From Hamadaea sp. (GTDB taxonomy: Bacteria; Actinomycetota; Actinomycetes; Mycobacteriales; Micromonosporaceae): 64,000 bases of DNA. The stretch spans positions 1 through 64,000 of the forward strand of contig NZ_JABFVK010000009.1 in NCBI RefSeq assembly GCF_013362815.1, given 5' to 3'. Each line of letters begins with the position of its first letter. Position 1 is the first letter of the stretch. The notes beneath the pieces were generated by a model, which made no database searches, was not told the origin of the DNA, and saw only the letters and a list, made by a program, of their open reading frames with translations. Shown here one piece after another: positions 2,683 to 57,725 of this stretch. The position numbers and the translations under genes are program-made.

Positions 2683-2691
2683 CAGGGACCC

Positions 2692-2718: not shown

Positions 2719-2743
2719 AAGAGTGTCTGCAGAGATCTCACCG

Positions 2744-2895: not shown

Positions 2896-2931
2896 CGATC
2901 ACTCGTGGATCAGCACTGTGGGAGGGTCTGA

Positions 2932-3429: not shown

Positions 3430-3432
3430 CCT

Positions 3433-3540: not shown

Positions 3541-3578
3541 TTACCTAGAGTTAGAAATAGACCCAGCAAGCCCCGCCG

Positions 3579-4567: not shown

Positions 4568-4631
4568 TGGAAAAGCTCCCGGGTATGCGAAATTGATAAC
4601 GAACAAGCCGGACCAGTTTACCGGCCGGTCA

Positions 4632-6151: not shown

Positions 6152-6200
6152 CGTGGTCAGCGTATCGGATCACATGATCGTCAAGCTTTCACCGGTGGCC

Positions 6201-6229
6201 TTGTCTCATCCTCCGGATCGTCTTAGCGT
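6201..6229 (+). promoter_or_regulatory. Predicted promoter of the lipoprotein gene
   Basis: -35 TTGTCT (6201-6206), 17-nt spacer, -10 TAGCGT (6224-6229). The GTG start lies 8 nt after the -10, so the transcript is probably leaderless. Prediction from sequence. Confidence 0.5.
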
Positions 6230-6237
6230 GTGCCGCT

Positions 6238-6801: not shown

Positions 6802-6824
6802 CGGAGACGTCCGCCGGACACGCG

Positions 6825-7331
6825 TCAGCGGCCGAGCGCCCCGGCGAGTTCGGCGGCGATCTCGGCCGGCTCGCGGCCGTCGGTCTTCACCGTGATCGTC
6901 GCGACCTCTTCATAGAGCGGACGCCGTTGGTCCAGCAGGTACTTCAGGGTGGCCCGGGGATTCAGCTCCAGCAGCGGCCGGCCCTGGCCGAGCCCGATCC
7001 GGTGGACCGCGTCGGGGAGTTCGACGCTCAGATAGACGACGGTGTGCCCGGCCAGCAGCGCTCGCGTGGGCTCGGCCAGGATCGCCCCGCCGCCCAGGGA
7101 CACCACGCCCTCGTGCTCAGCGAGCGCCGCGGCGACAGCAGCCCGTTCAAGCGTCCGGAAATGGTCCTCGCCGTCGTCGACGAAGATGTCGGAGATCGGC
7201 TTGCCGGCGCTCGCCACGATGTCGGCGTCGACGTCCCGGAACCGTACGCCCAGCGCCTCGGCGAGCAGCTCGCCGACGGTGGTCTTGCCGCTGCCGGGTG
7301 CGCCGACGAGCACCGCGACCGGGCGGCTCAT
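6825..7331 (-). CDS. aroK: Shikimate kinase
   Basis: Phosphorylates shikimate at the 3-hydroxyl with ATP. The 168-residue protein has Walker [10 protein letters not shown] (about 9-17), the shikimate-binding DVDADIV (about 33-39), FRTLE near residue 58 and the LGGGAI segment near residue 79, all in family order. Its start overlaps the aroC stop by four bases (7328-7331), so the two are translated together. It ends facing the convergent lipoprotein gene with 23 bp between them. Confidence 0.96.
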
Positions 7332-8506
7332 CGGATCACCAGGTTCGCCAGGTAGCCGTCGAGGTTACGGCGGATCTCGGCGATCGAGTCCCCGCCGAAC
7401 TTCTCCAGTGCCGCCTCGGCCAGCACCAATGCGACCATCGCCTCGGCGACCACGGCCGCGGCCGGCACCGCGCATACATCGGAACGCTGGTTGATCGCCG
7501 TCGCGGATTCGCCGGTCGTGACGTCGATCGTGTTCAGCGCCCGGTTGAGCGAGGAGATGGGCTTCATCGCCGCGCGTACGCGCATCGGCTGACCGTTGGT
7601 GATGCCGCCCTCGAGGCCACCGGCGTGATCGGTGTTGCGCAGTACGCCGTCCGGGCTCGGGAAGATCTCGTCGTGGGCCACCGAACCCCGTGAACGGGCC
7701 TGCATCCAGGCGTCGCCGATCTCGACGCCCTTGATCGCCTGGATCGACATCAGGGCGGCGGCCAGCCGGGCGTCGAGCTTGCGATCCCACTGTGTGTGAC
7801 TGCCGAGGCCCGGCGGCACTCCGTACGCCAGCACCTCGACCACTCCGCCGAGCGTATCGGCGTCTTTCTTCGCCGCATCGACCTCGGCAACCATCGCCGC
7901 GCTCGCCTCCGGATCGAGGCAGCGCAACGGATCGGCGTCGATCCGCTCGGCGTCGGCCGGCACCGGCACCAGCCCCGGCTTGGCGGCGACCGATCCCAGC
8001 TCGACGACGTGCGAGACGATCTCGATGCCGAGTCCCTGGTGCAGCAGCGCCTTGGCGACCGCACCCACAGCGACTCGGGCCGCCGTCTCGCGGGCACTAG
8101 CGCGCTCCAGGATCGGCCGGGCGTCGACGTGCCCGTACTTCTGCATCCCGGCCAGGTCGGCGTGTCCCGGGCGCGGCCGGGTCAGCGGCGCGTTGCGGGC
8201 CTGCGCGGCGAGCAGCTCCGAGTCGACCGGGTCGGCCGCCATCACCGTCTCCCACTTGGGCCACTCGGAGTTGCCCACGATGATCGACACCGGGCTGCCG
8301 AGCGTCACCCCGTGCCGGACACCGCCGGTCACGGTGACGACGTCCTGCTCGAACGCCATCCGGGCGCCCCGGCCATACCCGAGCCGCCGCCGGGCCAGGT
8401 CCCGGCCGATGACGGCGCTCGTGATCTCGATTCCGGCGGGCAGGCCGTCGAGCACGGCGGTCAGCGACGGCCCGTGCGACTCTCCTGCGGTCAACCAACG
8501 CAACAC
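7328..8506 (-). CDS. aroC: Chorismate synthase
   Basis: Last shared step of aromatic synthesis: converts EPSP to chorismate with reduced FMN. The 392-residue product begins [12 protein letters not shown], and carries [12 protein letters not shown] (about 39-50), [12 protein letters not shown] near residue 134 and [12 protein letters not shown] near residue 300. It is the first gene of the aroC-aroK pair. The GTG start has only a weak ribosome site. The 336 bp upstream carry dispersed repeats and must hold the promoter. Confidence 0.97.
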
Positions 8507-8842
8507 CTGATCAGTCTGTCACGCGCTGTCGGCGGCCTCTGTCACGCCGTGCCTCGCGTCTCACATGCTGCCTCTCTTCCCGTTGATCATGAACCTCGAG
8601 CCTGTTGGCAAAGCGCGAGTGGCCATGACCGTCGGTTCCCGACAGTTTGGCGGATCGCGTACAGACGATCGTCGGCGTCCGACGTTCTTGGCGGAGATCA
8701 ACGGAGAAAATGTGGGGTCATGGCACCGCGAATCTTCCACTGATCATGACCGCCCATGATCATGTTGGTCCCTCCGAGATTGATCATGGTTCTAGGGGGT
8801 GCGACACGCCGCCCGGTGGGACCTTAGGTTCATGATCAACGG
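8507..8842. other. Gene-free stretch upstream of aroC, rich in TGATCA motifs
   Basis: No credible ORF. It should contain the aroC promoter, which I cannot place with confidence. It holds a full copy of the 60-bp repeat (8780-8839), a partial one (CGTTGATCATGAACCT at 8581-8596), and further TGATCATG words near 8741 and 8755. This is the left boundary of the block that separates aroC from aroE. Confidence 0.6.
8780..8839 (-). repeat. 60-bp dispersed repeat, copy B
   Basis: Reads on the minus strand with ends TTGATCATG and CATGATCAA and the core CGGCGTGTCGCACCCCCTA. About 85 percent identical to the copy at 40085-40144, and shares the core with the copies at 12386 and 63837. The outer bases form imperfect terminal inverted repeats. 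Confidence 0.85.
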
Positions 8843-9151
8843 TCAGGTGCGGTCGCGGAGGTACGCGAGCGCCTCGGCGAGTGTTTCGAAGACCTGGTCG
8901 TAGCCCGCATGGAAGTACTCGGGCTCGGTGATGACCGTGACGCCCCACTGCGACCGGTCGGCCATTCCGTCGAGGACGGCGACCCGGTTGTGGCGGTATA
9001 TCGTCACGGCGATCGCACCGGTCGGATAGTCCAGCACGTCGACCGCGACGTCACCGAGGAACTCGATGACGAGTCGATGCAGCCGTTGCAGCTCCACGGC
9101 GTCCACCCGGCCTCCCACCAGCATCGTCACCCGCACGGAGAGCGGCAACAT
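8843..9151 (-). CDS. Conserved-type hypothetical protein
   Basis: About 102 residues from ATG 9151; an in-frame ATG at 9124 is another option and the frame stays open to 9226. The C-terminal 85 residues look like a compact alpha/beta domain: a segment around RLHRLVIEFLGDVAVDVLDY, beta-prone GAIAVTIYRHNRVAVLDGM, then a helix FETLAEALAYLRDR. No signal peptide or membrane segment. It is divergent from the methyltransferase, with start codons only about 25 bp apart, so both promoters overlap. I do not recognise the family. Confidence 0.6.
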   Translation of the reverse strand: MLPLSVRVTMLVGGRVDAVELQRLHRLVIEFLGDVAVDVLDYPTGAIAVTIYRHNRVAVLDGMADRSQWGVTVITEPEYFHAGYDQVFETLAEALAYLRDRT

Positions 9152-9176
9152 TAACGCCGGGCGTACCCTCCACGCC

Positions 9177-9785
9177 ATGGCAGATGCGGTGTCCGTTACC
9201 CGATCGACGTATGACGAGATCGCCACCGGCTTCGCCCGGGCGCAGGCCGAGGGCTATCCGGAGCTGGCGGACGACCTGAACTGGCTGGCAAGTCGGATAT
9301 CTGGCGATTCGCGGGTGGCTGACGTCGGCTGCGGACCCGGCCGCGATCTGGGTCTGTTGCGGGCGATGGGCTTCCGCGCGGTCGGGCTGGACCTTTCGGC
9401 CGAGATGCTGCGGGCCGGCGGGCGTACCGGAGTGGCCCAGGCCGACATGCGTACGCTGCCGCTGCGGGACGGCTCCCTCGACGGGCTGTGGTGCCAGGCG
9501 GCGTTGTTGCACATCCCGCATGCCGATGTCCCCGGCGTACTGGCCGAGTTCGCCCGGGTCGTCCGGCCGGGTGGAGCGGTGCACCTCGTGGTCGCCGAGG
9601 GCGACAGCGAGGGCTGGGAACGCCATGGCTACGGCGGCGACGGGCTGCGGTGGTTCGCGTACCACCGGCTCGAGTCGCTCTCCGTGTTGATGGCGGAGGC
9701 GGGGCTGACCGTAGTCGAGGCGGCGCACCGGTCGCATCACCGGGCGTGGCTGGGCGTACGCGCAGTTGCGGCTCGGTCAAACTAG
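9177..9785 (+). CDS. SAM-dependent class I methyltransferase
   Basis: A 202-residue Rossmann-fold methyltransferase (Methyltransf_11/25 type). Motif I VADVGCGPGRDLGLL (about 47-61) binds S-adenosylmethionine, the acidic post-I residue follows in AVGLDLS, and the FARVVRPGGAVHLVV post-motif III is near residue 122. Start ATG 9177 follows a -10-like TACCCT (9164-9169) by 7 nt, so it is probably leaderless; the longer frame from 9066 overlaps the divergent gene. The substrate cannot be told. Placement before two exporters fits a role in modifying a small molecule, which is inference. Confidence 0.85.
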   Translation: MADAVSVTRSTYDEIATGFARAQAEGYPELADDLNWLASRISGDSRVADVGCGPGRDLGLLRAMGFRAVGLDLSAEMLRAGGRTGVAQADMRTLPLRDGSLDGLWCQAALLHIPHADVPGVLAEFARVVRPGGAVHLVVAEGDSEGWERHGYGGDGLRWFAYHRLESLSVLMAEAGLTVVEAAHRSHHRAWLGVRAVAARSN

Positions 9786-34352: not shown

Positions 34353-37300
34353 TTACGGCGACACGAAGACCGTGACCGACCGAGCCGGCACGCTGAAAGC
34401 CGAGCCGAAAGCGGAGGCCGAGCGAAGCGAGGCGTCAGCGGACGAAGCGAGAACGGGGTGCAGCGCGAAGGACCAGCCCAGCCCCGGAATCGACTGCGTC
34501 ACCGGCTCCGCCTTGCTGTTGAAGATCACCACGTACCGACCGAACCGGCCGCCGAGCCCCCGAGCGTCGAGCGACATCGCGATCACCCCGGCCTGAGCCG
34601 AAGAGGTGCCGGACACGGGGAACGACACCCGAGACTGCACCGACGCAGCCGTGGGCAGGCTGAACACCGGTGAGGACGACCGGATCCGCAGCAGTTCGGC
34701 GTACCGGGCGGCGGCCAGGTTGATCACGTCGCAGGAAGGCACCAGCGAGGGATCGGCCAGCAAGGGCCGCCCATAACTCCAGCGCGACGAGTTGTCGGCC
34801 GCCGTCGGGAGCCCACGGCCGAACCCGTTGCCGGACGAGCAATCCCATTGGACCGCATTGAACCAGTCCCCGGAGTTGTAGGAGTTCTTGTCCAGCGACT
34901 TGGAGCGCAGCCGGTCCGACCCCAGCGTCACGAACCCGGTGCCCTGCGAGAACACGACGGTGGACAACGCCAGCACCTGCATCCGCGCTCGATCGACCGG
35001 AGAAGTGGACCGAGGCAGCTTGTACGCCAAAGCGTCGTACAGGATCTCGTTGTCATGCGCGTCCACGTAGGTGACCGCCTCCGACGGCGAGGCTGCGTAC
35101 CCGGCCGGGGACCCGTTGTAGTCGACCTGGTCACCGCGGACGAGAGCCCCCGACGACGACCGGAACTCGTAGGCGGCCAGGTTTCCCGCCAGCCCGAGCT
35201 GAATCAGATCCTGTGCGTGCGCCAACGCGGCCGGATCGGTCAGGCCGGAGGCGAAGCCCTGGATGCCGGGGTCGGCGTCGAACGGTCCGCCACCGCGTAC
35301 GGCGTCGCGCAGCCGGTCGGTGAAGGTGCCGATCCCGGTGCCGGCCATGTTCCGCTGGGTCGCCTGGACGAACCGGGCGTTGTTCGCGACCTCTCCGAAA
35401 TCCCAGCCTTCGCCGTAGAGCAGGATCGCCTTCCCGTCCACCCCGTCCTTCGCCGTCGTCAACGCGTCCAAGGCATGGCGTACGGCCAAGATGTTGGCGC
35501 GCGGATGGTGTCCCATGAGGTCGAACCGGAAACCGTCCACCTTGTACTCACGGGCCCACGTGACGATCGAGTCGACCACGAGCTTGCCCATCATGGCGTG
35601 CTCCGGAGCCGTGTTCGCGCAGCACGTCGAGTTCGCGACCGTGCCGTCGTCGAGCAGGCGCTGGTAGTAGCCCGGCACGATCTGGTCCAGGATCGAGCCC
35701 GGTGCGACGCCCGACGCCGAGGTGTGGTTGTAGACGACGTCCGCGACGACTCGCAGCCCGGCGTTGTTCACGCCCTGCACCATCTGCCGGTATTCCAGCG
35801 TGCGCGACGCGGGCGACACGGCGTACCCGCCCTCGGGGACGGTGTAATGCAACGGGTCGTAGCCCCAGTTGTAACCGTCCGTGTCGCGTACCGCCGCCAC
35901 GCAGGCCTGCTGCTGGTCCGAGTCCGGCGCCATCGAGGCCAGGTCGCAGGCCGGCGTGGCCTGCGCCGACCGCTCCTCCGGGGTGGAGGCGAAGTCGAAC
36001 GTCGGCAACAGATGCAGATGCGTCACGCCCGCCGCCGCAAGCTCCCGCAGGTGGGACATTCCCGCCGACGAGGACGCCATGAACGCCTGGTAGGTCCCGC
36101 GTGCGGACGAAGGAACGGTGGTGTCGGCGATCGAGAAGTCCCGCACCGAGACCTCCTGGATCTGCGGGCGGCCGGTCAGGGCCGGCTTGCGCAGGGAGTC
36201 CCAGCCGGCCGGCTTCTGATCGCCGAGCGAGACGATCTGGCTCGCAGAAGAGTTGACGGCCAACGCGAGCGAGTAGGGATCGGTCACGCTGGCGGTGACG
36301 AAGGTGTGGGTCGCCGGCTGCCACGCCGTCACCCGGAACCGGTAGAACTTCCCCTTCCACGACACCGGACCGGCCGCTCGCCAAACGCCCGTGGCGTCGT
36401 CGCGCGTCATCGGCACCAGGTCCGGCGTACCGGTCGGCGTCGACATCAGTTCCAGCTGCACGCGGCGGGCGGTCGGGGCCCAGACCGAGATCCGCGTCTG
36501 CTCCCGCGTCAGGGCCGGCCCCAGCTTCGTGCCGCTCGCGGCGGCGTACACGTCGTCCAGGACCCCGGGCAGCTGCACGCCCGTCGCCGACAACAGGTTG
36601 CCGTCGTGGTCGCTCTCGGCCACGACCAGCTGCGCGGTCAGCGCGGCCTTGATCTTCTTCAGGTCCGCGCTCAATCCAAAGGAGTGATACGCCCAAAGGT
36701 GCGGATAGGCAACGCGTTGTGCTTCGGTGAGCCCGTCGGCCCGCGCGTTCAACCGGATCGTGGTGAAGTCGCCGGTCAGGTGCCCGTCGGCCACCCCGAG
36801 ACCACCGTCCGGGGCGATGACGAGGTCGTAGACCTTGCCGTCGGTTTCCCCCTTGTTCCATACGATCGTGGACCGGTCGATCCACTGCGCATAACTGTGA
36901 CCGAGGTCGATGTCCTTCGGCGCGCTCTTCACCAGCGGACGCAGATAGCCGGGCGTCTGCTGCTGGAGCCAGACTTCGTTGCCGCTCGTGGCGAAGGTGA
37001 GCTTCTGGTCGGCTGGAAGATCCTTCTCGTCACCCTTGTGAAGGATGTAACTTAGTGCGGTGGCTCCGGCGGCCAGCGGCACCCGCCAGTACGCCCCGTA
37101 GGCGTCCGTGCCGGTGGGCGGCATCGGCGTACCCCAGTCGGTGGGAGCGGCCGCGCCGTCCCAGAGGTGGAGTCCCCAGCCGTCGTAGTCACCGGCCGAC
37201 CGGCGGTAGTGCAGCACCGCCACATGCGAGGCGGCCGCCTCCGAGGCGTACACGGCGTTCTCGCCGCCGGTCACGAAGGCGTCCGCACCCTGCGTCGGGT

Positions 37301-39950
37301 CGACCGATTGGTCCGCGCCGGGGTCCTTCGCGTCTCCGTTGTGGACGATGAAATTGACCACCTTGCTGGGGTCGGTCAGCGGCACGTTCCAGTACGCCCC
37401 GAAGGAGTCCGTCCCGGTGGGCGGCATCGGGTTCGCCCAGTCCACGGAGATGCCGAGCCCGTCACCCCACAGGTGCAGGCCCCATCCGCCGTAGTTCCCG
37501 TCGGCGCGGTGATAGTGGATCGTCTGGTAGCCGAGCGCGGCCGCCGGTGAGGCATACACGTTGGCGTCGCCTTGTTTGAGCCAGATCTCGCCGACGCGAC
37601 TGGGGTCGATGCTGCGATCGGCTTCGACGTCCTTGACGCCCTGGGAGTTCACGACGAGGAAGCCGACGTTGGCCGCACCCGGTTTGACCTTGACCCAGGC
37701 GAATCGGCCGTACGCGTCCTCCCCGGCGAACGGCTGCCCCACCGGCCAGTTGTGCTGCGACGACGAGTCGGAGTCGCCCCAGTTGTAGAGCCCCCAGTCG
37801 GCATAGTTCCCATCCGTACGCCGATAGTGCACGAGGACGTACTCCCGTTGCGCGCCTTGCACCGGAGTCGCCACCGTTACCTGCGACGTGTCGGTCGCCG
37901 TCACTCCCCCACTGTCCACCACCGCCTTGTACGCGATCGGCGTCGTCCCGCCGAGCCCGGTCAGGTCGTGGTAGACGGTGTACCGGCCGTCGGCGTCAGG
38001 CTGTGTGGCGGTGCCGAGCGCCTGCCAGCGGCCGTTCACCTGCGCCGAGAAACTGACCGTGGCGGTCGGCGACGCGTTGCCGACGGTCGCGCTGACCTTG
38101 GCGATGGTCGGAACCTTCGCACCGTCACCGGGCGAGTTGATCGTGATCGTCGGCGTTCCGGCGGCCGCCGCCACCGGCTGCTGCGCCTGCAGGACGACCG
38201 AGGACAGCGCCGGGATCGTCACGATGACCTTCCCGTCGCCGTCCGATACCGGGCCGTCGGCCAGACTCGGATAGATCCGGCTGAACCGCGTCCCGGGAGC
38301 CGATGCGGTCGACAGGGTCACCGTCTGCGACTGCGTCGACGAGTTCATCGCGACCACGTATTCGACCTGCTCACCGGAGTCGACCCGGCTGACCGCGAAG
38401 ACTCCCCCGCCCGCGTGGCGGACTTTCTGCGTACCAGTCGCCAATCCTGGATGAGCTGCGCGAAGCCGGCTGAGAGCCGCGATGGTCTGGTAGATGGGAT
38501 GCGTGGTCTCGTAGTTGTCCACGGCATGGGTGCGATCGGTGCCGAGGAGATCGTCGTCGAGGTAGTCCGGGGTTTTGCTCGCGAACATGTCCTGGCGGGC
38601 GTCCTTGTCGCCGCCGGGGCCGGTGAAGCCCTGCTCGTCGCCGGAGTAGACGACCGGCTGGCCGCGCGTGAGGAACATCAGCTCGTGCGCGAGCTCGTCC
38701 CGATCGAGATAGGTCGAGGCGTCCACACTGGACTTCTCAAGGAAGGAGCCGATCCGGCCCATGTCGTGGTTGCCGAGGAAGGTCGGCAGCGCGTTCGCGT
38801 CGGTGCCGGGCGCGGTGTAGTACGGATCCATCGCGTAGAGGTCGGCGAGGCCCTGGCCGCTGCCACCGGTGACGAAGCCCTGCGCGGCGGCCTGGAAGCC
38901 GAAGTCGAGCGTGGCCGGCAGCTTGCCCTGGCGCACGAAAGTCGACGCGTACGCCGCATCGGCGCTGTAGACCTCGCCGAACATGAAGAAGTTCGGTTTG
39001 CCGTGGTCCTTGGCGTAGCTGGTGATCCCCTGGCTGAACTGCGGCCAGAACGCCATGTCGACGTGCTTGACGGTGTCGAGCCGGAATCCGTCGACGCCGG
39101 TCGTCCCGATCCAGTCCTGGTAGATCTTCGTCATCCCGGCGACGACCTCGGGTCGCTCGGTCCACAGATCGTCCAGTCCATAGAAGTCCCCGTACGCCGA
39201 GTTCTCGCCGGAAAACGTCGAATCGCCACGGTTGTGGTACATCGAAGGATCGTTGAGCCACGCCGGTTTCTTCACCGTGCGGTCGGCCGCGTTCGCGAAG
39301 ACCGGGGTGTACGCACCGGCAGTTCCGTCGACCTTCGGAAACCCTTGAGCGCCGTCGGCGTAGTTCGCGTCTTCGAACGAGCGTCCCTGCGTGTCCGTGT
39401 AGGGGCTCGTCTTCTTGTCCACGTAGTCGTACTTGTTCTCGGCGTACTTGATGACGTCGGCGGTGTGGTTGACGATGACGTCGAGGTAGATCTTCATCCC
39501 CCGGTCGTGCGCCTTCTGCACGAGGCGCTTGAGGTCGGCGTTCGTCCCGAAATGCGGATCGACCTGGGTGAAGTCGGTGATCCAGTAGCCGTGGTACCCG
39601 GCGCTGTCGCCCTGCACTGGGCGGTTCTTGAAGACGGGCGCGAGCCAGATCGAGGTCGTCCCCAGGCCCTGGATGTAGTCCAGCTTGTCGATCACGCCCT
39701 GCAGGTCGCCACCGTGATAGAAGCCCTTGTCCGTGGGGTCGTAGCCGGTCTTCGTACGGTCGCCCGCGTACCCGCCCTTGTCGTTGGACGGATCTCCGTT
39801 CGCGAACCGGTCGGGCAGGACGAAGTAGAACTGCTCCGCCCTCTTCGGCGCTGCTCGCTCAGGCTGCTGTGCGGCGGCTTGAGCCGGCAACGGCGGCACC
39901 ACGGTCATCGGGAGGATCAGGACGAGCGGCAGCAACCTGCGGAGATTCAT
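34353..39950 (-). CDS. Secreted bifunctional alpha-amylase / type I pullulanase
   Basis: An 1865-residue extracellular starch degrader that hydrolyses alpha-1,4 and alpha-1,6 bonds. Start ATG 39950 gives a clean signal peptide (MNLRRLLPLVLILPMTVVPP, cut near AQAAA). Domains: GH13 amylase (about 35-590) with DVIVNHT, GFRLDTVKH (nucleophile Asp), GEVYSAD (acid Glu) and FLGNHD; Ig-like spacer (about 600-690); three starch-binding PUD/CBM41 repeats near 700, 810 and 910 (HYRRTDGNYADWG and kin); an N2-like region, CBM48 near 1150; GH13_14 pullulanase (about 1270-1865) with DVVYNHT, GFRFDLMGHH, YGEGWDFGE and YVDAHDNE. Both active sites look complete. The earlier codon at 39983 would spoil the signal peptide. 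Probably repressed via CTTGC operators upstream. Confidence 0.95.
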   Translation of the reverse strand: MNLRRLLPLVLILPMTVVPPLPAQAAAQQPERAAPKRAEQFYFVLPDRFANGDPSNDKGGYAGDRTKTGYDPTDKGFYHGGDLQGVIDKLDYIQGLGTTSIWLAPVFKNRPVQGDSAGYHGYWITDFTQVDPHFGTNADLKRLVQKAHDRGMKIYLDVIVNHTADVIKYAENKYDYVDKKTSPYTDTQGRSFEDANYADGAQGFPKVDGTAGAYTPVFANAADRTVKKPAWLNDPSMYHNRGDSTFSGENSAYGDFYGLDDLWTERPEVVAGMTKIYQDWIGTTGVDGFRLDTVKHVDMAFWPQFSQGITSYAKDHGKPNFFMFGEVYSADAAYASTFVRQGKLPATLDFGFQAAAQGFVTGGSGQGLADLYAMDPYYTAPGTDANALPTFLGNHDMGRIGSFLEKSSVDASTYLDRDELAHELMFLTRGQPVVYSGDEQGFTGPGGDKDARQDMFASKTPDYLDDDLLGTDRTHAVDNYETTHPIYQTIAALSRLRAAHPGLATGTQKVRHAGGGVFAVSRVDSGEQVEYVVAMNSSTQSQTVTLSTASAPGTRFSRIYPSLADGPVSDGDGKVIVTIPALSSVVLQAQQPVAAAAGTPTITINSPGDGAKVPTIAKVSATVGNASPTATVSFSAQVNGRWQALGTATQPDADGRYTVYHDLTGLGGTTPIAYKAVVDSGGVTATDTSQVTVATPVQGAQREYVLVHYRRTDGNYADWGLYNWGDSDSSSQHNWPVGQPFAGEDAYGRFAWVKVKPGAANVGFLVVNSQGVKDVEADRSIDPSRVGEIWLKQGDANVYASPAAALGYQTIHYHRADGNYGGWGLHLWGDGLGISVDWANPMPPTGTDSFGAYWNVPLTDPSKVVNFIVHNGDAKDPGADQSVDPTQGADAFVTGGENAVYASEAAASHVAVLHYRRSAGDYDGWGLHLWDGAAAPTDWGTPMPPTGTDAYGAYWRVPLAAGATALSYILHKGDEKDLPADQKLTFATSGNEVWLQQQTPGYLRPLVKSAPKDIDLGHSYAQWIDRSTIVWNKGETDGKVYDLVIAPDGGLGVADGHLTGDFTTIRLNARADGLTEAQRVAYPHLWAYHSFGLSADLKKIKAALTAQLVVAESDHDGNLLSATGVQLPGVLDDVYAAASGTKLGPALTREQTRISVWAPTARRVQLELMSTPTGTPDLVPMTRDDATGVWRAAGPVSWKGKFYRFRVTAWQPATHTFVTASVTDPYSLALAVNSSASQIVSLGDQKPAGWDSLRKPALTGRPQIQEVSVRDFSIADTTVPSSARGTYQAFMASSSAGMSHLRELAAAGVTHLHLLPTFDFASTPEERSAQATPACDLASMAPDSDQQQACVAAVRDTDGYNWGYDPLHYTVPEGGYAVSPASRTLEYRQMVQGVNNAGLRVVADVVYNHTSASGVAPGSILDQIVPGYYQRLLDDGTVANSTCCANTAPEHAMMGKLVVDSIVTWAREYKVDGFRFDLMGHHPRANILAVRHALDALTTAKDGVDGKAILLYGEGWDFGEVANNARFVQATQRNMAGTGIGTFTDRLRDAVRGGGPFDADPGIQGFASGLTDPAALAHAQDLIQLGLAGNLAAYEFRSSSGALVRGDQVDYNGSPAGYAASPSEAVTYVDAHDNEILYDALAYKLPRSTSPVDRARMQVLALSTVVFSQGTGFVTLGSDRLRSKSLDKNSYNSGDWFNAVQWDCSSGNGFGRGLPTAADNSSRWSYGRPLLADPSLVPSCDVINLAAARYAELLRIRSSSPVFSLPTAASVQSRVSFPVSGTSSAQAGVIAMSLDARGLGGRFGRYVVIFNSKAEPVTQSIPGLGWSFALHPVLASSADASLRSASAFGSAFSVPARSVTVFVSP

Positions 39951-40000
39951 CGCGTACCTCGGGGGCTCGGTGGCACACATCACGGCGAAGCGTCCGCCGC

Positions 40001-44165: not shown

Positions 44166-45005
44166 TCACGAGTAGCGCGGCGGCGCGAGCTTCTTCCCCT
44201 TGGCCGAGCCGGTCATCTTGGTCTTGCCGAGGTAGAGGAAGCAGCGTACGCCGCGCTCCCCCTTGTCCCAGTCGTTCGACACCACTCCGGCCAGGCCTGA
44301 ATACTTGCCGGCGTACTGCGAGATCGAGACGCCGAGAAAGGCCGCGAGCAGCACCGCACACCGGTCGTGGATGGGTGCCCATTGGCTGTCGGTCTCCGGC
44401 AGCTTCGAGCCGGTGCCCGTAACGGAACCCACGTATTCGGCATTATGCTTCTGTCCACAAGCGACAGCCGTCAGCGTGTAGTCCTTGCCGCTGGCCTGGA
44501 AGCAGCCGAGGGCGAGCGCGTCCAGGCCGTCCTTCAGCCGCCCCGTCCGGGTCGCCGCCATTTCCTGCTCGATGTCCCTGACCTCGCGCACGTCGCAGCG
44601 GATCCACTTCGCGCCGGCCTTGATCGCGGCAACGGTCGGCAGAATCACCTCGAACGTCACCCGCAGGCCGCGCCAGTCCCGCCCCAGCGCCGCATTGACC
44701 TTCTTCTCGCAGAAGGCGAACTGATCGGCCTCCGAGCCGCCCGGGGAATCGCCGACGTACACGGTCTCGGCCTCGTGCGGCTGCGAGCAGTCGACGGGTG
44801 GCGCCGACTTCACCGAGGCCGTCCCGATCAAGTAGGTCAGGAAGCACGCGCCGTCGACCGGCTCGTAGCCCTTCGGCTCACCAGGCATCGCCCACGCGTT
44901 CGCCAGTTCGCCGTCGACGCCGCCGGGCAGCTGCGAGCACCCGCTCGCCCCGACCGCCATCACTAGTGCCACCGCGCTCGCGGCCAGCCATCGTCGCCCC
45001 GTCAT
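44166..45005 (-). CDS. Septum-formation-type lipoprotein, paralog 1
   Basis: A 279-residue lipoprotein: MTGRRWLAASAVALVMAVGA then lipobox SGC. After the lipid cysteine come eight cysteines in two sets of four, with the repeating signature C-x-x-x-H-x-x-E-x-x-Y-V-G (CSQPHEAETVYVG, CGQKHNAEYVG), i.e. an internal duplication of the septum-formation (PF13845-like) domain. The tail RCFLYLGKTKMTGSAKGKK is shared with two paralogs in this window (45092-45976, 50917-51804). Outer face of the membrane, disulfide-rich. The ribosome site GGGAGG is strong. The molecular role is unknown; the family name derives from domain annotation. Confidence 0.85.
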   Translation of the reverse strand: MTGRRWLAASAVALVMAVGASGCSQLPGGVDGELANAWAMPGEPKGYEPVDGACFLTYLIGTASVKSAPPVDCSQPHEAETVYVGDSPGGSEADQFAFCEKKVNAALGRDWRGLRVTFEVILPTVAAIKAGAKWIRCDVREVRDIEQEMAATRTGRLKDGLDALALGCFQASGKDYTLTAVACGQKHNAEYVGSVTGTGSKLPETDSQWAPIHDRCAVLLAAFLGVSISQYAGKYSGLAGVVSNDWDKGERGVRCFLYLGKTKMTGSAKGKKLAPPRYS

Positions 45006-45038
45006 GACTTCCTCCCAAGGTCAAGTGGGAGGAGTGTA

Positions 45039-45072
45039 GAAGGCCGGTACGCATTTCCGCGTACCGGCCTTC
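45039..45072 (-). terminator. Hairpin after septum lipoprotein paralog 2
   Basis: GAAGGCCGGTACGC and its exact complement (14 bp) with a 6-nt loop. Lies just after the 45092-45976 gene on the minus strand and before paralog 1, so the two have separate transcription ends. Confidence 0.7.
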
Positions 45073-45091
45073 GTCGTGCTCAGTCAGATGG

Positions 45092-45976
45092 TCAGGCCCA
45101 CTTCGGCACGGCGGTCTTCTTGCCCTTGGCCGAGCCGGTCATCTTGGCCTTGCCCAGCCACAGGAAGCAGCGGACGTTGTTGTTCCCGGCCGACCAGTAC
45201 TTCTTCGACGTCGCCCAGGCGATCTCGCTGTAGCTCTTGTCGAACTGGCTCCCGGAGATGCCCAGGTACGCCGCCGCGATCTCGTCGCACTTCTCGTGCA
45301 GCACGTCCCAGCCCGCGTCGGTCGTCGGGTACGCCACCCCCGCCGCCGGTTCGAACGAGCCGACGTACTCGCTGTTGTGCGAAGCGGAGCACTCGACCTC
45401 GGCCATCGTCAGGTCGCCGCCGCTCTCGGTGGCGGTGAAGCAGCCGAGCGGAAGAGTCGGCAGACCGTCCTGGATGTTGGACATCCGCGACTTCGTCTCG
45501 GCGTTCTCGAGATCCGCCAGCTCGATGACGTCGCAGGCGAACCAGTGCGCGCCGCCCTTCCAGGCCGCGCTGGACGGCGTCACGAGCCTCAGCGCCAGCC
45601 GCAGGTCGCGCCAGTCGTAGCCGAGCACCTTGTTCACCTGCTCCTCGCAGGTGTCGAACGCGTCGGCGGCGTCCTTGGAGTCGGTCTCGGGCGGCGTCGA
45701 CGCGCTCGCCACGCTGCCACTGAACTCGCCGACATACAGCGTCTCGGTCTCGTGGCTCTTCGTGCAGTCGACGACGGCGAACTCCGTCGCGGTCGCCGAA
45801 CTGTCGGTCTCCTTCGCATGACAGCCGCGGTCGGGGACGAAGCTCTTCGGCGCGGGCAGCGCCGCCCAGTCGTCGGCCAGATCGCCGTCGGTGCCGGTCA
45901 ACGCGCTGCATCCCGACAATGCGAGCCCACCCGCCAGTATCAACGCGACGGCTGCGATCCCACGCCTGCTTCTCAT
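45092..45976 (-). CDS. Septum-formation-type lipoprotein, paralog 2
   Basis: A 294-residue lipoprotein with signal MRSRRGIAAVALILAGGLAL and lipobox SGC. Same plan as paralog 1: eight cysteines in two sets, CTKSHETETLYVG and CSASHNSEYVG repeats, and the tail RCFLWLGKAKMTGSAKGKK. Between the repeats lies a linker rich in Ser/Thr. It is upstream of paralog 1 on the same strand but a hairpin (45039-45072) separates them. Ribosome site GGGGAGGGG. Probably arose by duplication with paralog 1. Function unknown. Confidence 0.85.
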   Translation of the reverse strand: MRSRRGIAAVALILAGGLALSGCSALTGTDGDLADDWAALPAPKSFVPDRGCHAKETDSSATATEFAVVDCTKSHETETLYVGEFSGSVASASTPPETDSKDAADAFDTCEEQVNKVLGYDWRDLRLALRLVTPSSAAWKGGAHWFACDVIELADLENAETKSRMSNIQDGLPTLPLGCFTATESGGDLTMAEVECSASHNSEYVGSFEPAAGVAYPTTDAGWDVLHEKCDEIAAAYLGISGSQFDKSYSEIAWATSKKYWSAGNNNVRCFLWLGKAKMTGSAKGKKTAVPKWA

Positions 45977-46072
45977 GAAGGGCCCCTCCCCAGGTCGTCC
46001 TCTGCCGGGCAGTCTAGGTCAGCCGCGCATCCGTCCCACCGCCGCCCCGGCGAAGGGGGCAGGATAGGGGTC

Positions 46073-47659
46073 GTGCGTTCGCCTGTCTACGCCCCGAACG
46101 GAGTGGTCGCCACCAGCCAGCCGCTGGCGGCGCAGGCCGGTCTGGCCATGCTGCGGGAGGGCGGCACCGCCGTCGACGCCGCGGTCGCCGCGGCCATCAC
46201 TCTCGCCGTCGTCCAGCCCGGCTCCAACGACCTCGGCGGCGATCTGTTCGCGCTCGTCTGGGACGGCCGCGAGCTGCACGGGCTCAACGCCTCCGGCCGG
46301 TCACCCGCCGCGTTGACCCACCAGCTCATGGTGGCCTCCGCGCAGCCCCCGACGCCCGCGCTGGGCGGCGCGCAGGCCACGGCCGCCACCGCTCCCCCGG
46401 CTCGCGGGTGGCTTCCGGTCACTGTCCCCGGCGCTCCGGCCGGGTGGGCCGATCTGCACGCGCGATTCGGCCGGCTCCCGTTCGAACGGCTTTTCGACGA
46501 TGCCATCCGGTACGCCGAGAGCGGCTTTCCGGTTTCGCCGGCCACTGCCCGGAATTGGACCGCGGCGGTACGCGTACAAGCTGGGTTGAAAGATGACGCG
46601 TGCGCGCATTGGCCGCGAACCTTCACCCTGGACGGACGTGCGCCGGCGGCCGGCGAGCGATTCGCGAACCCGGGCGCGGGACGGGCTCTACGGTTGATCT
46701 CCGGATCGCACGCGCGGGACTTCTACACCGGCGAGCTGGCGGCGGCCATGGTGCGGCACGCCTGGACCACGGCGGGGCTGCTCACCGGCGAGGACCTGGC
46801 GCGCCACGAGTCGACCTGGGTCGCGCCGATGAGCGCGCGGTACCACGGTTTCGAGGTGCACGAGCTGCCGCCGAACGGGCAGGGAGTGGCGGCGCTGCAA
46901 GCGTTCGCGCTGCTGGACGGGCTGCCCGGCGTCCCCGGTACGCACGAGCAGATCGAGGCGATGAAGCTCGGTTTCGCAGACGCGCACGCCTACGTGGCCG
47001 ATCCCGCCTTCGGCGCTGTGCCCGACTTGCTGGATCCGTCCTACCTGGACACTCGCCGTACGCTCATCGGCGAACGGGCGGCCGCCCCGCAGCCCGGCGA
47101 CCCGATGCGCGGCGGCACGGTCTACCTCGCCACCGCCGACGCGGGCGGCATGATGGTGTCGCTGATCCAATCGACGTACATGGGGTTCGGCTCGTTCGTC
47201 ACCATCCCGGAGTACGGCTTCGGCCTGCAGAACCGCGGCGCGGGCTTCAGCCTCGACCCGGCCCATCCGAACGTCGCAGGCGGCGGGAAGCGCCCGTTCC
47301 ACACCATCATCCCGGGATTCCTCAGCCGTGACGGCTCGCCGGTCGGTCCGTTCGGCGTGATGGGCGGGCACATGCAGCCCCAGGGCCACCTGCAACTCGT
47401 GACCGCCACAGTGGACGGTGGTCTCGACCCGCAGGCGGCGCTCGCCCGCCCCCGCTGGCACTGGACCAGCGGACTCGACGTGCTGGTCGAGCCGGCGTTC
47501 GATCCTTCCGTCGTGGCGGACCTGCTCTCCCGGGGACACCGGGTCACCGTTTCCGACGAACCTTCCGTCTTCGGCATGGGCCAAGCCATCTGGCGTACGC
47601 CGCACGGCTATGTCGCCGGCTCGGAGCCTCGCGGCGACGGCCAGGCCGCTCCCTGCTGA
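46073..47659 (+). CDS. Gamma-glutamyltransferase-family Ntn hydrolase
   Basis: A 528-residue Ggt-family protein starting at GTG 46073, after AGGATAGGGG; the longer frame from 45296 overlaps paralog 2 and is a shadow. N-terminal AAQAGLAMLREGGTAVDAAVAAA is the family opening; PNGQGVAALQAF is central; the self-cleavage site with the catalytic threonine is RGGTVYLATADAGG near residue 345. No signal peptide is seen, so it belongs to the cytoplasmic branch (YwrD-like) acting on amides such as acyl-amino acids rather than secreted glutathione hydrolase. Substrate unknown. Confidence 0.88.
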   Translation: MRSPVYAPNGVVATSQPLAAQAGLAMLREGGTAVDAAVAAAITLAVVQPGSNDLGGDLFALVWDGRELHGLNASGRSPAALTHQLMVASAQPPTPALGGAQATAATAPPARGWLPVTVPGAPAGWADLHARFGRLPFERLFDDAIRYAESGFPVSPATARNWTAAVRVQAGLKDDACAHWPRTFTLDGRAPAAGERFANPGAGRALRLISGSHARDFYTGELAAAMVRHAWTTAGLLTGEDLARHESTWVAPMSARYHGFEVHELPPNGQGVAALQAFALLDGLPGVPGTHEQIEAMKLGFADAHAYVADPAFGAVPDLLDPSYLDTRRTLIGERAAAPQPGDPMRGGTVYLATADAGGMMVSLIQSTYMGFGSFVTIPEYGFGLQNRGAGFSLDPAHPNVAGGGKRPFHTIIPGFLSRDGSPVGPFGVMGGHMQPQGHLQLVTATVDGGLDPQAALARPRWHWTSGLDVLVEPAFDPSVVADLLSRGHRVTVSDEPSVFGMGQAIWRTPHGYVAGSEPRGDGQAAPC

Positions 47660-47995
47660 CCCCTTCCGCTTTCCATGTATCCCCCTTCGAGTCGTTTGCT
47701 CGGCTCGGTGCGTTATCCCGGGATAACGCGGCATAGCGCGCACTTTTAAGCGCGTTATCCCGCATAACGCGCAGGACGCCCCTCACCGCAGCGCTGGTCC
47801 CGCTCGCCCGCAGGACACCCGCGCGACAGTCCGAGTGTCCAGCAGGCAGCACCCAGCCCCACAAGATTGCACGAACATCGTCAGGATGTTGCGTACGAAT
47901 ATCTAAGTATTGCGTTCCTGTGTCGACCGCTGGCATGATGACCCGGCGGCCGGGCGTCGCCGCATCCCTGTCCACATTCGACAAAAGGGAGCGCC
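47660..47995. other. Gene-free stretch with paired GCGTTATCCC dyads
   Basis: No credible ORF. It contains two related inverted repeats (47710-47729, 47750-47772). The last 130 bp are AT-richer and should hold the promoter of the GH71/99-like gene, whose ribosome site is AGGGAG. Confidence 0.6.
47710..47772. promoter_or_regulatory. Two related dyads GCGTTATCCC-GGGATAACGC and GCGCGTTAT-n5-ATAACGCGC
   Basis: The first (47710-47729) is a perfect 20-bp palindrome; the second (47750-47772) has perfect 9-bp arms with a CCCGC loop and repeats GCGTTATCCC. Centres are about 41.5 bp apart, close to four helical turns. Candidate operators for the glycosidase gene, or terminator/REP structures after the transferase gene. 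Confidence 0.5.
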
Positions 47996-50332
47996 ATGAC
48001 GGTCACACGCAGGCAGGTGTTAGCCGGAGCGGCAGTGGGAACGGCGGCCGCCGTCGGACTGCCGGGGCGTACGGAGGCGGCCAGCCCGCCCGGCGACGTC
48101 GTCGGCAAGATCTCGGTGGGCTATCAGGGCTGGTTCGCCGCTGCGGGCGACGGTTCACCGATCAACGGCTGGTGGCATTGGGCGCAGAACTGGGGCCAGA
48201 CGCCGTCGCCGTCGAACAACTCGATCGTCTCCTGGCCCGACGTACGCGACTACACCCGCACCTATCCGACCGCGTGGGCGAGTCTCGGCAACGGACAGCC
48301 CGCCGCCTTGTTCTCCCATTACGACCAGCAGACGGTCGACACGCACTTCCAGTGGATGCGGGACAACGGCTGTGACACGGCGGCGTTGCAGCGGTTCAAC
48401 CCGTTCGGCGGGGAGGGCGCGATCCGCGACGCCATGGCGGCCAAGGTACGCACCGCCGCCGAAGCGACCGGCCGCAGGTTCTACATCATGTACGACGTCA
48501 CCAACTGGACGAACATGCAGTCGGAGATCAAGACCGACTGGACCCAGAAGATGTCGGCGCACACCGCTTCGGGGGCGTACGCGAAACAGAACGGCAAGCC
48601 GGTCGTCTGCGTCTGGGGCTTCGGCTTCAACGACGACGGCCGCCCGTTCAGCGCGGCGGCCTGCTTGGACGTCGTGAACTGGTTCAAGGCACAGGGCTGC
48701 TACGTGATCGGCGGCGTGCCAACCTATTGGCGGCAGGGCATCAACGACTCCCGCGCGGGCTACTTCGACGTGTACACGGCGTTCAACATGATCTCGCCGT
48801 GGATGGTCGGCCGGACCGGCACCCTCGACGGGCTGGACTGGTTCTACACCAACGTGAACCTCGCCGATCAGGCCGAGTGCAACGCCCGGGGCATCGACTA
48901 TCAGCCGTGCGTCATGCCCGGTGACCTGTCGTCTCACCATCGGAGGCACGGCGACTTCTACTGGCGGCACCTCTACAACATGATCCGTCTGGGCGCGCAG
49001 GGACTCTACGTCTCGATGTTCGACGAGTACAACGAGGGCAATCAGATCGCGAAGACTGCGGAGTCGGCCGCCTTCATCCCGGCCGGGTCCAGTTTCGTGA
49101 CGCTGGACGAGGACGGCACTGCCTGCTCGTCCGACTACTACCTGCGGATCACCGCCGACGGCGGCAAGATGCTCAAGGGCCAGATCCCGCTTACGGCGAC
49201 CCGGCCGACCCAGCCCGTCGTCGGCACCCCACCCCCCACTGGGAATCTGGCACGGGGCAAGCCGACCAGCGAAAGCAGCCACAATCAGGCGTACGCCGCA
49301 GCCAACGCGGTCGACGGCGACCAGAACAGTTACTGGGAAAGCGTCAACAACTCGTTTCCGCAGTGGGCGCAGGTCGACCTCGGCAGCGCGGCCGCTGTCA
49401 CCCGGGTTGTGCTCAAACTCCCGGCGTCCTGGGGCGCGCGTACGCAGACCTTGTCCATACAGGACGGAGCCACTGGGGCGGTCCTCGCGAGTGGGGCGTA
49501 CGTCTTCGACCCCGCGAGCGCCAACACGGTGACCGTGACGATCGCACCGAAGACGGTCCGCTACGTCCGGGTGACAGTGTCTGGCAACTCGGGCTGGCCT
49601 GCGGCACAGCTGTCGGAACTCGAGGTCTACGGCAGCACCGGCGGCGACACCCAGGCCCCCGCCGCGCCGGCCAACCTGACCGTCACCGGCAAGACCGCCA
49701 CCAGCGCCTCGCTCTCGTGGTCCGGGTCGACCGACAACGTCGGCGTCACCGCGTACCAGGTCAGGCAGGGCGGCGCCGTCGTCGCCACGGTCACCGGCAC
49801 GAGCGCCACCATAAGCGGGCTCACCCCGGCCACCTCGTACACGTTCACGGTCACCGCGCAGGACGCCGCCGGGAACACCTCACCCACATCGAACGCAGTC
49901 AGCGTCACGACCGACGCCGCGCCCGCCACCAACCTCGCGCGCGGCAAGGCGACCAGCGAGAGCAGCCACACGCAGACCTACGGCTCGGCCAACGCCGTCG
50001 ACGGCAACCCGGGCACTTACTGGGAAAGCGCCAACAGCGCCTTCCCGCAATGGCTCCAGGTCGATCTCGGCGCGGCGACGACGATCAGCCGGGTCGTGCT
50101 CAAACTGCCGTCGAACTGGGAGACGCGTACCCAGACGCTGTCGGTCCAGGGCAGCGTGGCCGGCACGTCGTTCACCACGCTCGCGAGCGGCGGCTACACG
50201 TTCAATCCCGCCACCGGCAACACGGTCACCGTCACGTTCGGGGCGGCGAGCGCACGCTACGTGCGCATCCAGGTCACGGGCAACACCGGCTGGCCCGCCG
50301 GTCAGGCTTCCGAATTCGAGGTGTACGCCTGA
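47996..50332 (+). CDS. Secreted GH71/99-like glycosidase with two F5/8C modules and FN3
   Basis: A 778-residue exported protein. The start MTVTRRQVLAGAAVGTAAAV is a twin-arginine signal. Residues about 35-405 resemble the GH71/GH99-like fold of mannan/alpha-glucan-type hydrolases (GKISVGYQGWFAAAGDGSP, WHWAQNWGQTPSPSN, QRFNPFGGEGAIRDAM, FDEYNEGNQIAK). Then F5/8-type C module 1 (about 415-545, LARGKPTSESSHNQAYAAAN), an FN3 (about 550-640) and F5/8C module 2 (about 645-778), near-duplicate of the first. The modules should bind carbohydrate. The exact substrate is not readable. Tat export suggests a folded or cofactor-bound precursor. Confidence 0.85.
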   Translation: MTVTRRQVLAGAAVGTAAAVGLPGRTEAASPPGDVVGKISVGYQGWFAAAGDGSPINGWWHWAQNWGQTPSPSNNSIVSWPDVRDYTRTYPTAWASLGNGQPAALFSHYDQQTVDTHFQWMRDNGCDTAALQRFNPFGGEGAIRDAMAAKVRTAAEATGRRFYIMYDVTNWTNMQSEIKTDWTQKMSAHTASGAYAKQNGKPVVCVWGFGFNDDGRPFSAAACLDVVNWFKAQGCYVIGGVPTYWRQGINDSRAGYFDVYTAFNMISPWMVGRTGTLDGLDWFYTNVNLADQAECNARGIDYQPCVMPGDLSSHHRRHGDFYWRHLYNMIRLGAQGLYVSMFDEYNEGNQIAKTAESAAFIPAGSSFVTLDEDGTACSSDYYLRITADGGKMLKGQIPLTATRPTQPVVGTPPPTGNLARGKPTSESSHNQAYAAANAVDGDQNSYWESVNNSFPQWAQVDLGSAAAVTRVVLKLPASWGARTQTLSIQDGATGAVLASGAYVFDPASANTVTVTIAPKTVRYVRVTVSGNSGWPAAQLSELEVYGSTGGDTQAPAAPANLTVTGKTATSASLSWSGSTDNVGVTAYQVRQGGAVVATVTGTSATISGLTPATSYTFTVTAQDAAGNTSPTSNAVSVTTDAAPATNLARGKATSESSHTQTYGSANAVDGNPGTYWESANSAFPQWLQVDLGAATTISRVVLKLPSNWETRTQTLSVQGSVAGTSFTTLASGGYTFNPATGNTVTVTFGAASARYVRIQVTGNTGWPAGQASEFEVYA

Positions 50333-50335
50333 CGC

Positions 50336-50375
50336 AGCGAGCGGTGCCGGCAATCCTGTGCCGGCACCGCTCGCT
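50336..50375. terminator. Bidirectional hairpin between glycosidase and peroxidase genes
   Basis: Perfect 17-bp arms AGCGAGCGGTGCCGGCA / complement with a 6-nt loop ATCCTG. Lies 4 bp after one stop and 5 bp before the other on the opposite strand. Confidence 0.75.
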
Positions 50376-50379
50376 TCAG

Positions 50380-50868
50380 CTACTTGGCTGCGGAGACCAG
50401 CTTGTCGATCGCCGCGACCAGCTCGGGAGCGTCGGGCTCGACCCGGGGGTTGAACCGGGCGACGACCTTGCCGTCGGCGTCGACGAGGAACTTCTCGAAG
50501 TTCCACCGGATGTCGCCGACGTGGCCGTCGGCGTCGGCCACCCGGGTCAACTGCGCGTACAGCGGGTGCTGCCCGTCGCCGTTGACCTCGACCTTCTCGG
50601 TCATGGGGAAGGTGACGCCGTAGGTCGCCGAGCAGAACTCGGCGATCTCCTCGGCGGTCCCCGGCTCCTGGCCGCCGAACTGGTTGCAGGGCACCCCGAT
50701 GACGGTCAGCTCAGGCGTCGCCTCGGCGAGCCGCTCCAGCCCGGCGTACTGCGGGGTGAGCCCGCAGCGCGAGGCGACGTTGACGATCAGAGCCGGCTTG
50801 CCGCGATGGCGGGCCAGCTCGCCGGGCTGCCCGGCCAGGGACGAGATCTCGATGTCGAAGACGGACAT
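50380..50868 (-). CDS. Glutathione peroxidase family (cysteine type)
   Basis: A 162-residue thioredoxin-fold peroxidase. The peroxidatic residue is a cysteine, in VNVASRCGLTPQY (about 29-41), encoded by TGC and not by a selenocysteine TGA. Gln and Trp/Asn partners are in VIGVPCNQFGGQEPG (about 57-71) and WNFEKFLVD (about 123). Actinobacterial members generally use thioredoxin or mycothiol-linked reductants rather than glutathione. Cytoplasmic peroxide removal. It stands alone, between a glycosidase and a septum lipoprotein gene on the same strand as the latter. Confidence 0.93.
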   Translation of the reverse strand: MSVFDIEISSLAGQPGELARHRGKPALIVNVASRCGLTPQYAGLERLAEATPELTVIGVPCNQFGGQEPGTAEEIAEFCSATYGVTFPMTEKVEVNGDGQHPLYAQLTRVADADGHVGDIRWNFEKFLVDADGKVVARFNPRVEPDAPELVAAIDKLVSAAK

Positions 50869-50916
50869 GCCGCCGAGCCTATCGCGCTGATCTCGGCGGG
50901 CTCATTTCGGCAGAGC

Positions 50917-51804
50917 TCATTTCGGCAGGTTCGTGCCGCGCTTGCCCTTGGCGGTGCCGGTCATCGACTTCTTCGCGCCGTACCAGAGGAAGCAGTGCAC
51001 GTCCTGCCGCCCGGAGGCCACGTACGCCTCGTTGTAGCCGAACCAGACGTAGGTGCCGGTGAGGTACTTCACCTGGGCGGTGCCGACGCCGAGGTACGCG
51101 GCCGCGAGCGAGCGGCACTTGGTGTGATACGGCTCGTACTGCGCATTCGTGGTCGGCCGGGTCGCGGAGAAGGCGGTGAAGGTGCCGACGTACTCACCGT
51201 TGTGCTTGGTGGCGCAGTCGACCACCCGGGACTCGTCGTTGGCGAAGTTCATGCAGGCGATCGGGTAGGTGAAGCCCTTGAGGCTGCCCTCGCGGCTCTC
51301 CTCGTCGAACGAGTACCAGTCGACCTGCTGCAGCTCGCAGCGGTACCACTTGCGCCCGGCCGCCCAGGCCGCGTTCGTCGGCAGCGCGATGGTCAGATCG
51401 AGCCGCACGTCGTACCACGGGTGCCCGACGTACGCCGTGGCCTGCTTGCTGCATTCGGCGTACGCCTCGGCCTGGGCGGCGGCCGCCGCGCCGGTCGCGT
51501 TCTTCTGCAGCGTCGGCGGCGTGGTGAGCGCGGCCGAGGCGCCAATGAACTCGCCGACGTAGACGACTTCCCGGTTATGCGTTCCGGTGCAGGGCACCAT
51601 CGCTTCGGTGACGGGGTTGACCTGCTCCTGAGTCGCAGTGCGGCAGTCGCCGACCTTGGCCTGGACCACCTGGGCCGCGGGTGGCATCGACCATTGGTTG
51701 GCCAGCTTCCCGTCGACTCCGTCCGGCAGGCCGCACCCGGCCAGCCCCAACAGCACCGCCGCCACCGCCAAGCCGGCCGCCAGCCGTCGCCCCTGCCCCG
51801 TCAT
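50917..51804 (-). CDS. Septum-formation-type lipoprotein, paralog 3
   Basis: A 295-residue lipoprotein: MTGQGRRLAAGLAVAAVLLG and lipobox AGC. It again has eight cysteines in two sets (CTGTHNREVVYVG and CATKHNGEYVG) and the tail HCFLWYGAKKSMTGTAKGKR. The N-terminal VDGKLANQWSMP matches VDGELANAWAMP of paralog 1, so these two are the closest pair despite lying 6 kb apart. The 5' leader CTGGGGGAGGAAGTC also resembles that of paralog 1 (TTGGGAGGAAGTC). Divergence is high in the Ala-rich linker. Function unknown. Confidence 0.85.
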   Translation of the reverse strand: MTGQGRRLAAGLAVAAVLLGLAGCGLPDGVDGKLANQWSMPPAAQVVQAKVGDCRTATQEQVNPVTEAMVPCTGTHNREVVYVGEFIGASAALTTPPTLQKNATGAAAAAQAEAYAECSKQATAYVGHPWYDVRLDLTIALPTNAAWAAGRKWYRCELQQVDWYSFDEESREGSLKGFTYPIACMNFANDESRVVDCATKHNGEYVGTFTAFSATRPTTNAQYEPYHTKCRSLAAAYLGVGTAQVKYLTGTYVWFGYNEAYVASGRQDVHCFLWYGAKKSMTGTAKGKRGTNLPK

Positions 51805-55800: not shown

Positions 55801-55940
55801 TCGGCTGAGAAACATCAGCCTTGGCACAGCGATCACTGGAAGGTCTCTTTACTGTAAGGGGAGTTTAATTTATCTTTGCCTGAGGGTTACCCCGATCCAT
55901 GTGAATCTGTCCCCATTCCCCCAGGCAGGTGGCACATCAG

Positions 55941-57725
<1,785 letters not shown>

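Follow-up and report, generated by a model that had tools for sequence, protein, structure and literature searches.

Introduction

A mycobacterial protein is among the described relatives of the proteins considered here. Rv3835/MSMEG_6414 is annotated as a Septum_form domain protein (PMC7921967), and Rv3835 of Mycobacterium tuberculosis is proposed to be ZipA-like, a label traced to transcript profiles of cells in which septum formation had been inhibited (Slayden, 2006; PMC3989709, PMC7921967, PMC10609169). In 2014 its involvement in division was still described as ‘to be validated’ (PMC3989709); Rv3835 is also named in PMC10353445, PMC7287972, PMC6339365 and PMC9914581. We assume that the Pfam name Septum_form shares the same transcript-profiling source. 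Here we analyze three such genes, SF1, SF2 and SF3, which lie in the first 64,000 nucleotides (hereafter the window) of contig NZ_JABFVK010000009.1 of Hamadaea sp. (Micromonosporaceae; assembly GCF_013362815.1).

A reading of the sequence alone had described the three products as lipoproteins with a conserved basic C-terminal tail, which might bind a wall polymer or a partner, and had placed them in an undescribed envelope system together with neighboring Ggt and glycosidase genes. The analysis below instead places this odd trio in a known, functionally untested family, in which the apparent tail is included in the repeat unit.

Results

Family membership and anatomy

SF1, SF2 and SF3 match the Pfam family PF13845 (Septum_form) with scores far above its gathering cut-off of 25 bits (Table 1), so their resemblance to it is not a matter of chance. 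The matches start at profile positions 12, 4 and 2, respectively, and each extends to position 227 of 227. PF13845 was likewise matched by all 40 proteins of an alignment made up of the trio together with 37 homologues drawn from its genus and from the family Micromonosporaceae, while no NCBIfam model scored above its cut-off for any of the three. Judging by these comparisons, it is almost certain that the trio belong to a known, poorly understood family and that they have the anatomy described here.

The three paralogous open reading frames (ORFs) are present where the sequence-only reading had put them, all on the minus strand, and their products are 45% (SF1-SF2), 38% (SF1-SF3) and 35% (SF2-SF3) identical. 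Each has the lipobox and the eight further cysteines, four per half, that had been described. The 40 aligned proteins share all eight mature cysteines without exception, as they do H75, H200 and E203, and E78 is present in 39; none of the trio has a CxxC pair. The motif C-x3-H-x2-E-x2-YVG, which had been reported in two copies, is exact in the first copy only, since the second reads C-x3-H-x2-E-YVG and is two residues shorter. The ending CFLW-x-G-x-K-x-MTG(S/T)AKGK is shared overall, but SF1 reads CFLY and SF3 has one extra residue ahead of MTG. From the lipobox in all three proteins and the cysteine at its column in 39 of the 40 we infer export and lipid anchoring; disulfides would be expected from export together with the even number of cysteines.

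The same unit was found in 162 open frames, 107 with two units and 55 with one (a few genes are doubled in these numbers), and most of the single-unit frames have a hydrophobic segment upstream. Because earlier counts had doubled a few genes (e.g. L060, L110), we used the 265 distinct units among 269. Of these, 263 have a cysteine in each of the four columns, although the model used to gather the units was itself derived from four-cysteine units and favors them. One of the two exceptions (L162) is cut by a contig end, and the other (L122) has its first cysteine just outside the extracted stretch. The histidine of H-x2-E is found in 262 of the 265 and the glutamate in 254. We also looked for joint loss of cysteines as a test of disulfide pairing and saw no clear loss among the units.

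The conserved ending

When profiles of the first and second halves were compared, hhalign aligned them with a probability of 98.2 and an E-value of 2.9e-14 (a single comparison), pairing the R-x-GSLKG that closes half 1 with the TGSAKG that closes half 2. A joint alignment of 48 units gave a consensus ending in TGSLKG. Outside the two-unit proteins, the single-unit protein on contig C29 of the same genome ends in YTGSLRK, the single-unit protein L024 closes with LTGSAKG, and a single-unit protein from another family of the order ends in LTGSAKGTGPAPN. In a sister family (loci L075-L082) xSAKG occurs at five of the eight loci, in two of them as GSAKG.

To count the ending more widely, we relied on the columns of a MAFFT alignment, since regular expressions proved too narrow. 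The serine of the ending is present in 80/105 first units, 95/106 second units and 37/54 single units (all distinct), and a lysine or arginine stands next but one after it in 83/105, 100/106 and 30/54. A strict pattern for the ending was found in 39/105 first, 68/106 second and 16/54 single units, compared with 0/265 in a control consisting of another stretch of the same units; the corresponding values for a looser pattern were 57/105, 83/106 and 16/54, with 7/265 in the control. Only 13 of the 106 second units, and not one of the remaining 159 units, have the exact form MTG[ST]AKG. On these counts the closing element is real but variable, and it is loosest in single-unit proteins. The ending is not absent from homologues, then, being conserved elsewhere, more loosely than the cysteines, which are complete in nearly all distinct units.

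The full-length AlphaFold model of SF2 (26 sequences) has a mean predicted local distance difference test score (pLDDT) of 83.2, with block means of 90-95 over residues 271-294 and values under 50 for residues 1-29. When unit 2 was modeled alone, the mean pLDDT was 84.9 and the main strands and long helix were kept. Foldseek found no match in the PDB at an E-value of 0.001 or better for either the full-length model (0/47) or the unit (0/48). The best VIA Z scores, 3.6 for the full length and 3.1 for the unit, are weak; the low-scoring matches include histidine-triad proteins, with Z of 2.1-2.7. Such matches show neither a new fold nor an absence of enzyme activity. Searches by sequence yielded no solved relative either; the sole row of one of them (E 0.041) covers just residues 2-57, the signal region.

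Since the ending has a counterpart closing unit 1, takes a variable form in single-unit relatives and is ordered in the model, it most likely closes the repeated unit and forms part of its fold, rather than being a new binding tail. The free basic tail that had been envisaged, binding a wall polymer, is at odds with the mid-protein counterpart, with the order in the model and with the small number of second units that have the exact form.

Spread and ancestry of the paralogs

The three genes are real members of a set, but not the whole set that the word trio implied. Their genome encodes five two-unit members, three in the window and one each on contigs C83 and C8, together with the single-unit member on C29. 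At an E-value of 0.001 the Septum_form family was found in 48 of 296 genomes of a sample of the phylum and in 49 of 61 Micromonosporaceae genomes, with up to 11 matches per genome, leaving 12 of the 61 with no PF13845 match at that threshold.

In a tree of 114 proteins, SF1, SF2 and SF3 are not united in a single clade; SF2 is grouped with its orthologues from the genus, and SF3 likewise with its own, in each case with a support of 100 in the Shimodaira-Hasegawa-like approximate likelihood ratio test (SH-aLRT). All three fall inside a group of 32 proteins (support 92), together with Catellatospora copies standing in tandem before nadB. The tree omits the two of 116 rows that were shorter than 221 residues, and it was made by a quick method and has several long branches; the place of SF1 in it is unsure. 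A recent triple duplication was rejected, because the trio is split in the tree and the nearest neighbors of SF2 and of SF3 are their respective orthologues.

All 61 Micromonosporaceae genomes have nadB, and at least 47 have a family member in the 6 kb upstream of this gene, in the same orientation. In at least 46 of these 47 the matches are less than 400 bp apart; single-unit-like matches were omitted from this count, and the distances are between matches rather than gene ends. Among 40 long loci, 16 contain nadB, always with nadC and coaX, in the one-strand order panC (15 loci)-panD (12)-SF (one to four copies)-nadB-nadC-coaX. As these loci were chosen around family members, the 47 of 61 is the unbiased figure for the linkage. 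We read the trio as diversified paralogs of a lipoprotein that is core to Micromonosporaceae and whose gene directly precedes nadB.

The ratio of nonsynonymous to synonymous substitution rates (dN/dS; Nei-Gojobori-type) between orthologues is 0.20-0.27 for SF2 (three pairs), 0.26 and 0.32 for SF3, and 0.27 for the C83 copy. SF2, SF3 and the C83 copy are under purifying selection. Ratios between paralogs (0.78 and 1.07) are near saturation and were not used.

Two Catellatospora records have a tandem array of four Septum_form genes that separates panD from nadB (L062, 3998-7804; L067, 3937-7804). In the nadB-linked locus of the genome studied here (L048, 5985-8013) a putative major facilitator superfamily (MFS)-type transporter and a regulator, both named by eye, lie on the other strand between panD and SF-nadB. 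A second recurring site, represented by L070 (4893-10622), has the family beside ribulose-phosphate epimerase, an M28 peptidase and RsmB, and L071, L074, L047 and L040 share neighbor clusters with L070.

Genes around the trio

Between SF2 and SF3 lie a Ggt gene (PF01019) and a gene for a protein with an fn3 and two F5/8 type C domains; a glutathione peroxidase (GPx) gene adjoins SF3. The N-terminal ~400 residues of the fn3 protein have no Pfam catalytic match (E 1) and no PDB sequence match (E 0.01), so the ‘glycosidase’ of the sequence-only reading is unconfirmed. Ggt and SF genes occur together at three of four other loci in the genus, from three genomes (L035, L036, L061), and GPx with a glycoside hydrolase (GH) at L035 and at L068, the latter on a short contig. 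Outside the genus, none of the long loci tested had Ggt, GH or GPx beside a family member. In a second set of seven loci, the sole neighbor of a type seen in the window was a chitinase-like match ~7 kb from a paralog (L199), again in the same genus.

Elsewhere in the window, positions 34353-39980 (minus strand) encode a 1875-aa starch enzyme that combines two modules in a single chain: a match to an alpha-amylase catalytic domain close to the N-terminus and pullulanase-type domains nearer the C-terminus, along with three PUD stretches. Positions 55929-57725 (plus strand) encode a GH18 chitinase-like protein with a CBM_4_9 domain.

Table 1. Features of the trio and of the loci compared with it. 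Positions refer to the window or, for the two nadB-linked regions, to the locus named.
Feature	Positions	Strand	Evidence
SF1, two-unit Septum_form (PF13845) lipoprotein, 279 aa	44166..45005	-	ORF; PF13845 106.8 bits
SF1 lipobox ASGC	44937..44948	-	sequence motif
SF1 unit 1, from C54	44520..44846	-	unit alignment
SF1 unit 2, from C168	44169..44504	-	unit alignment
SF1 ending MTGSAKGK	44193..44216	-	sequence
SF2, two-unit Septum_form lipoprotein, 294 aa	45092..45976	-	ORF; PF13845 138 bits; AlphaFold model
SF2 lipobox LSGC	45908..45919	-	motif; Cys at this column in 39/40 aligned proteins
SF2 unit 1, from C52, ends with SRMSNIQDGL, the tail counterpart	45458..45823	-	half-to-half profile and unit alignments
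SF2 unit 2, C179 to C-terminus	45095..45442	-	profile and unit alignments; modeled alone
SF2 ending MTGSAKGK	45119..45142	-	sequence; pLDDT block means 93-95 in full-length model
SF3, two-unit Septum_form lipoprotein, 295 aa	50917..51804	-	ORF; PF13845 98.9 bits
SF3 lipobox LAGC	51733..51744	-	sequence motif
SF3 unit 1, from C54, ends with SREGSLKGF, the tail counterpart	51268..51645	-	unit alignment
SF3 unit 2, from C184	50920..51255	-	unit alignment
SF3 ending MTGTAKGK	50941..50964	-	sequence
Protein with fn3 and two F5/8 type C domains	47996-50332	+	Pfam
nadB-linked region of the same genome, L048 (C83:17000-27000)	1537-9349		
nadB-linked region, L062	2734-11351		

Discussion

Taken as a whole, we think it fairly probable that SF1, SF2 and SF3 are two-unit lipoproteins whose ending belongs to the fold, that they are paralogs of the nadB-linked lipoprotein, and that they act in binding or as scaffolds. 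They would be exported and lipid-anchored, each consisting of two tandem ~110-residue four-cysteine Septum_form units, and would serve as membrane-tethered, presumably disulfide-stabilized modules outside the cytoplasm. These modules may bind a partner in the envelope, with the paralogs differing in which partner they bind. The last part, binding or scaffolding rather than catalysis, is one that we put forward tentatively.

Several observations weigh against this explanation. The histidine and glutamate, constant across almost all units, might instead point to catalysis or metal binding, and none of the analyses brought out a ligand, a partner, a localization or a phenotype. The closing element is not always C-terminal, given that in the sister family xSAKG is followed by 34-141 further open-frame residues (five of eight loci), and it is looser in single-unit proteins, where the strict pattern is confined to 16 of 54. 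When unit 2 of SF2 is modeled by itself, the terminus bearing the ending is less ordered (pLDDT block 67); this fits packing of the ending against unit 1 in the full-length protein, although it does not prove it. Finally, in two of the genomes compared (G002 and G003) the corresponding locus contains no orthologue of SF1, so that the selection estimates cover SF2, SF3 and the C83 copy.

The family name, and the ZipA-like role proposed for the M. tuberculosis relative, would make the trio cell-division proteins, membrane-tethered factors acting at the septum. The lipobox and conserved cysteines, however, point to a position of the unit outside the membrane, and a protein that binds FtsZ would have to do so in the cytoplasm. 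The conserved neighbor is nadB in at least 47 of 61 genomes (no search was aimed at division genes), no PF13845 match at an E-value of 0.001 was found in 12 of the 61, and the division involvement of Rv3835 itself still awaited validation in the 2014 source cited above. We consider a septal role unlikely. A metal or redox site formed by C-x3-H-x2-E, the proteins then being extracytoplasmic lipoproteins that carry metal or have a redox function, would be in keeping with the near-constancy of the histidine, the glutamate and the four cysteines (262, 254 and 263 of 265 distinct units) and with the GPx gene adjoining SF3. It sits poorly with the lack of a CxxC pair in the trio and with a GPx neighbor that is confined to the genus in the loci tested, and the even set of four cysteines per unit would fit two structural disulfides; the absence of a significant fold match is weak evidence either way. 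Such a site seems to us quite unlikely.

The idea that the basic ending is a dedicated ligand for a wall polymer or partner, within an undescribed envelope system that includes Ggt and the glycosidase, draws on an ending that is indeed conserved and basic in the trio and on the recurrence of Ggt with SF genes at three of four other genus loci. But counterparts of the ending close unit 1 and occur in single-unit proteins, the exact form is found in just 13 of 106 second units, and in the long loci tested no homologue from another genus had a Ggt or GH match next to it; the neighborhood that is conserved is that of the NAD and pantothenate genes. We regard this idea as very improbable, and a new system founded on the tail was dropped in view of the unit 1 counterpart and the genus-only Ggt neighborhood in those loci.

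The two-unit lipoprotein explanation, then, leaves the linkage to nadB and the unmatched fold as the parts worth following. The same-strand position before nadB is a testable lead, and one that the name Septum_form fits badly. A more speculative suggestion, to which we give a small but real chance, is that the family is misnamed: in Micromonosporaceae it might be an envelope component that is expressed together with NAD and pantothenate/CoA synthesis, has been retained by most genomes and amplified repeatedly into diversified surface paralogs, and whose duplicated four-cysteine unit has an unsolved fold and binds a ligand linked to cofactor or precursor status instead of to the septum. Among the matches listed for titles and abstract beginnings of open-licence articles in PubMed Central (PMC), there was no functional study of these lipoproteins or of their linkage to nadB.

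The trio resembles the described PF13845 proteins in its near full-length profile match and in having two four-cysteine units with H-x2-E and a closing element; it differs from them in comprising small predicted lipoproteins, of which one genome encodes five two-unit copies. The DUF4190-Septum_form membrane proteins, such as the one on C29, share a single four-cysteine Septum_form unit, there with the ending YTGSLRK, but carry that one unit following DUF4190, a membrane domain of two helices. A weak match to the NCBIfam model NF053532 (lipo_SCO4651) covers residues 6-162 of SF3; at 14.5 bits against a cut-off of 65 SF3 is not a member, and SF1 and SF2 have no match at an E-value of 1. A further comparison is with the Rv3835/MSMEG_6414 type, which we take to be represented by the two-unit sister family (f8, L075-L082). 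That family differs from the trio in its longer open frames of 372-508 aa, in having one full-length match per genome in eight of eight, and in the residues that follow SAKG.

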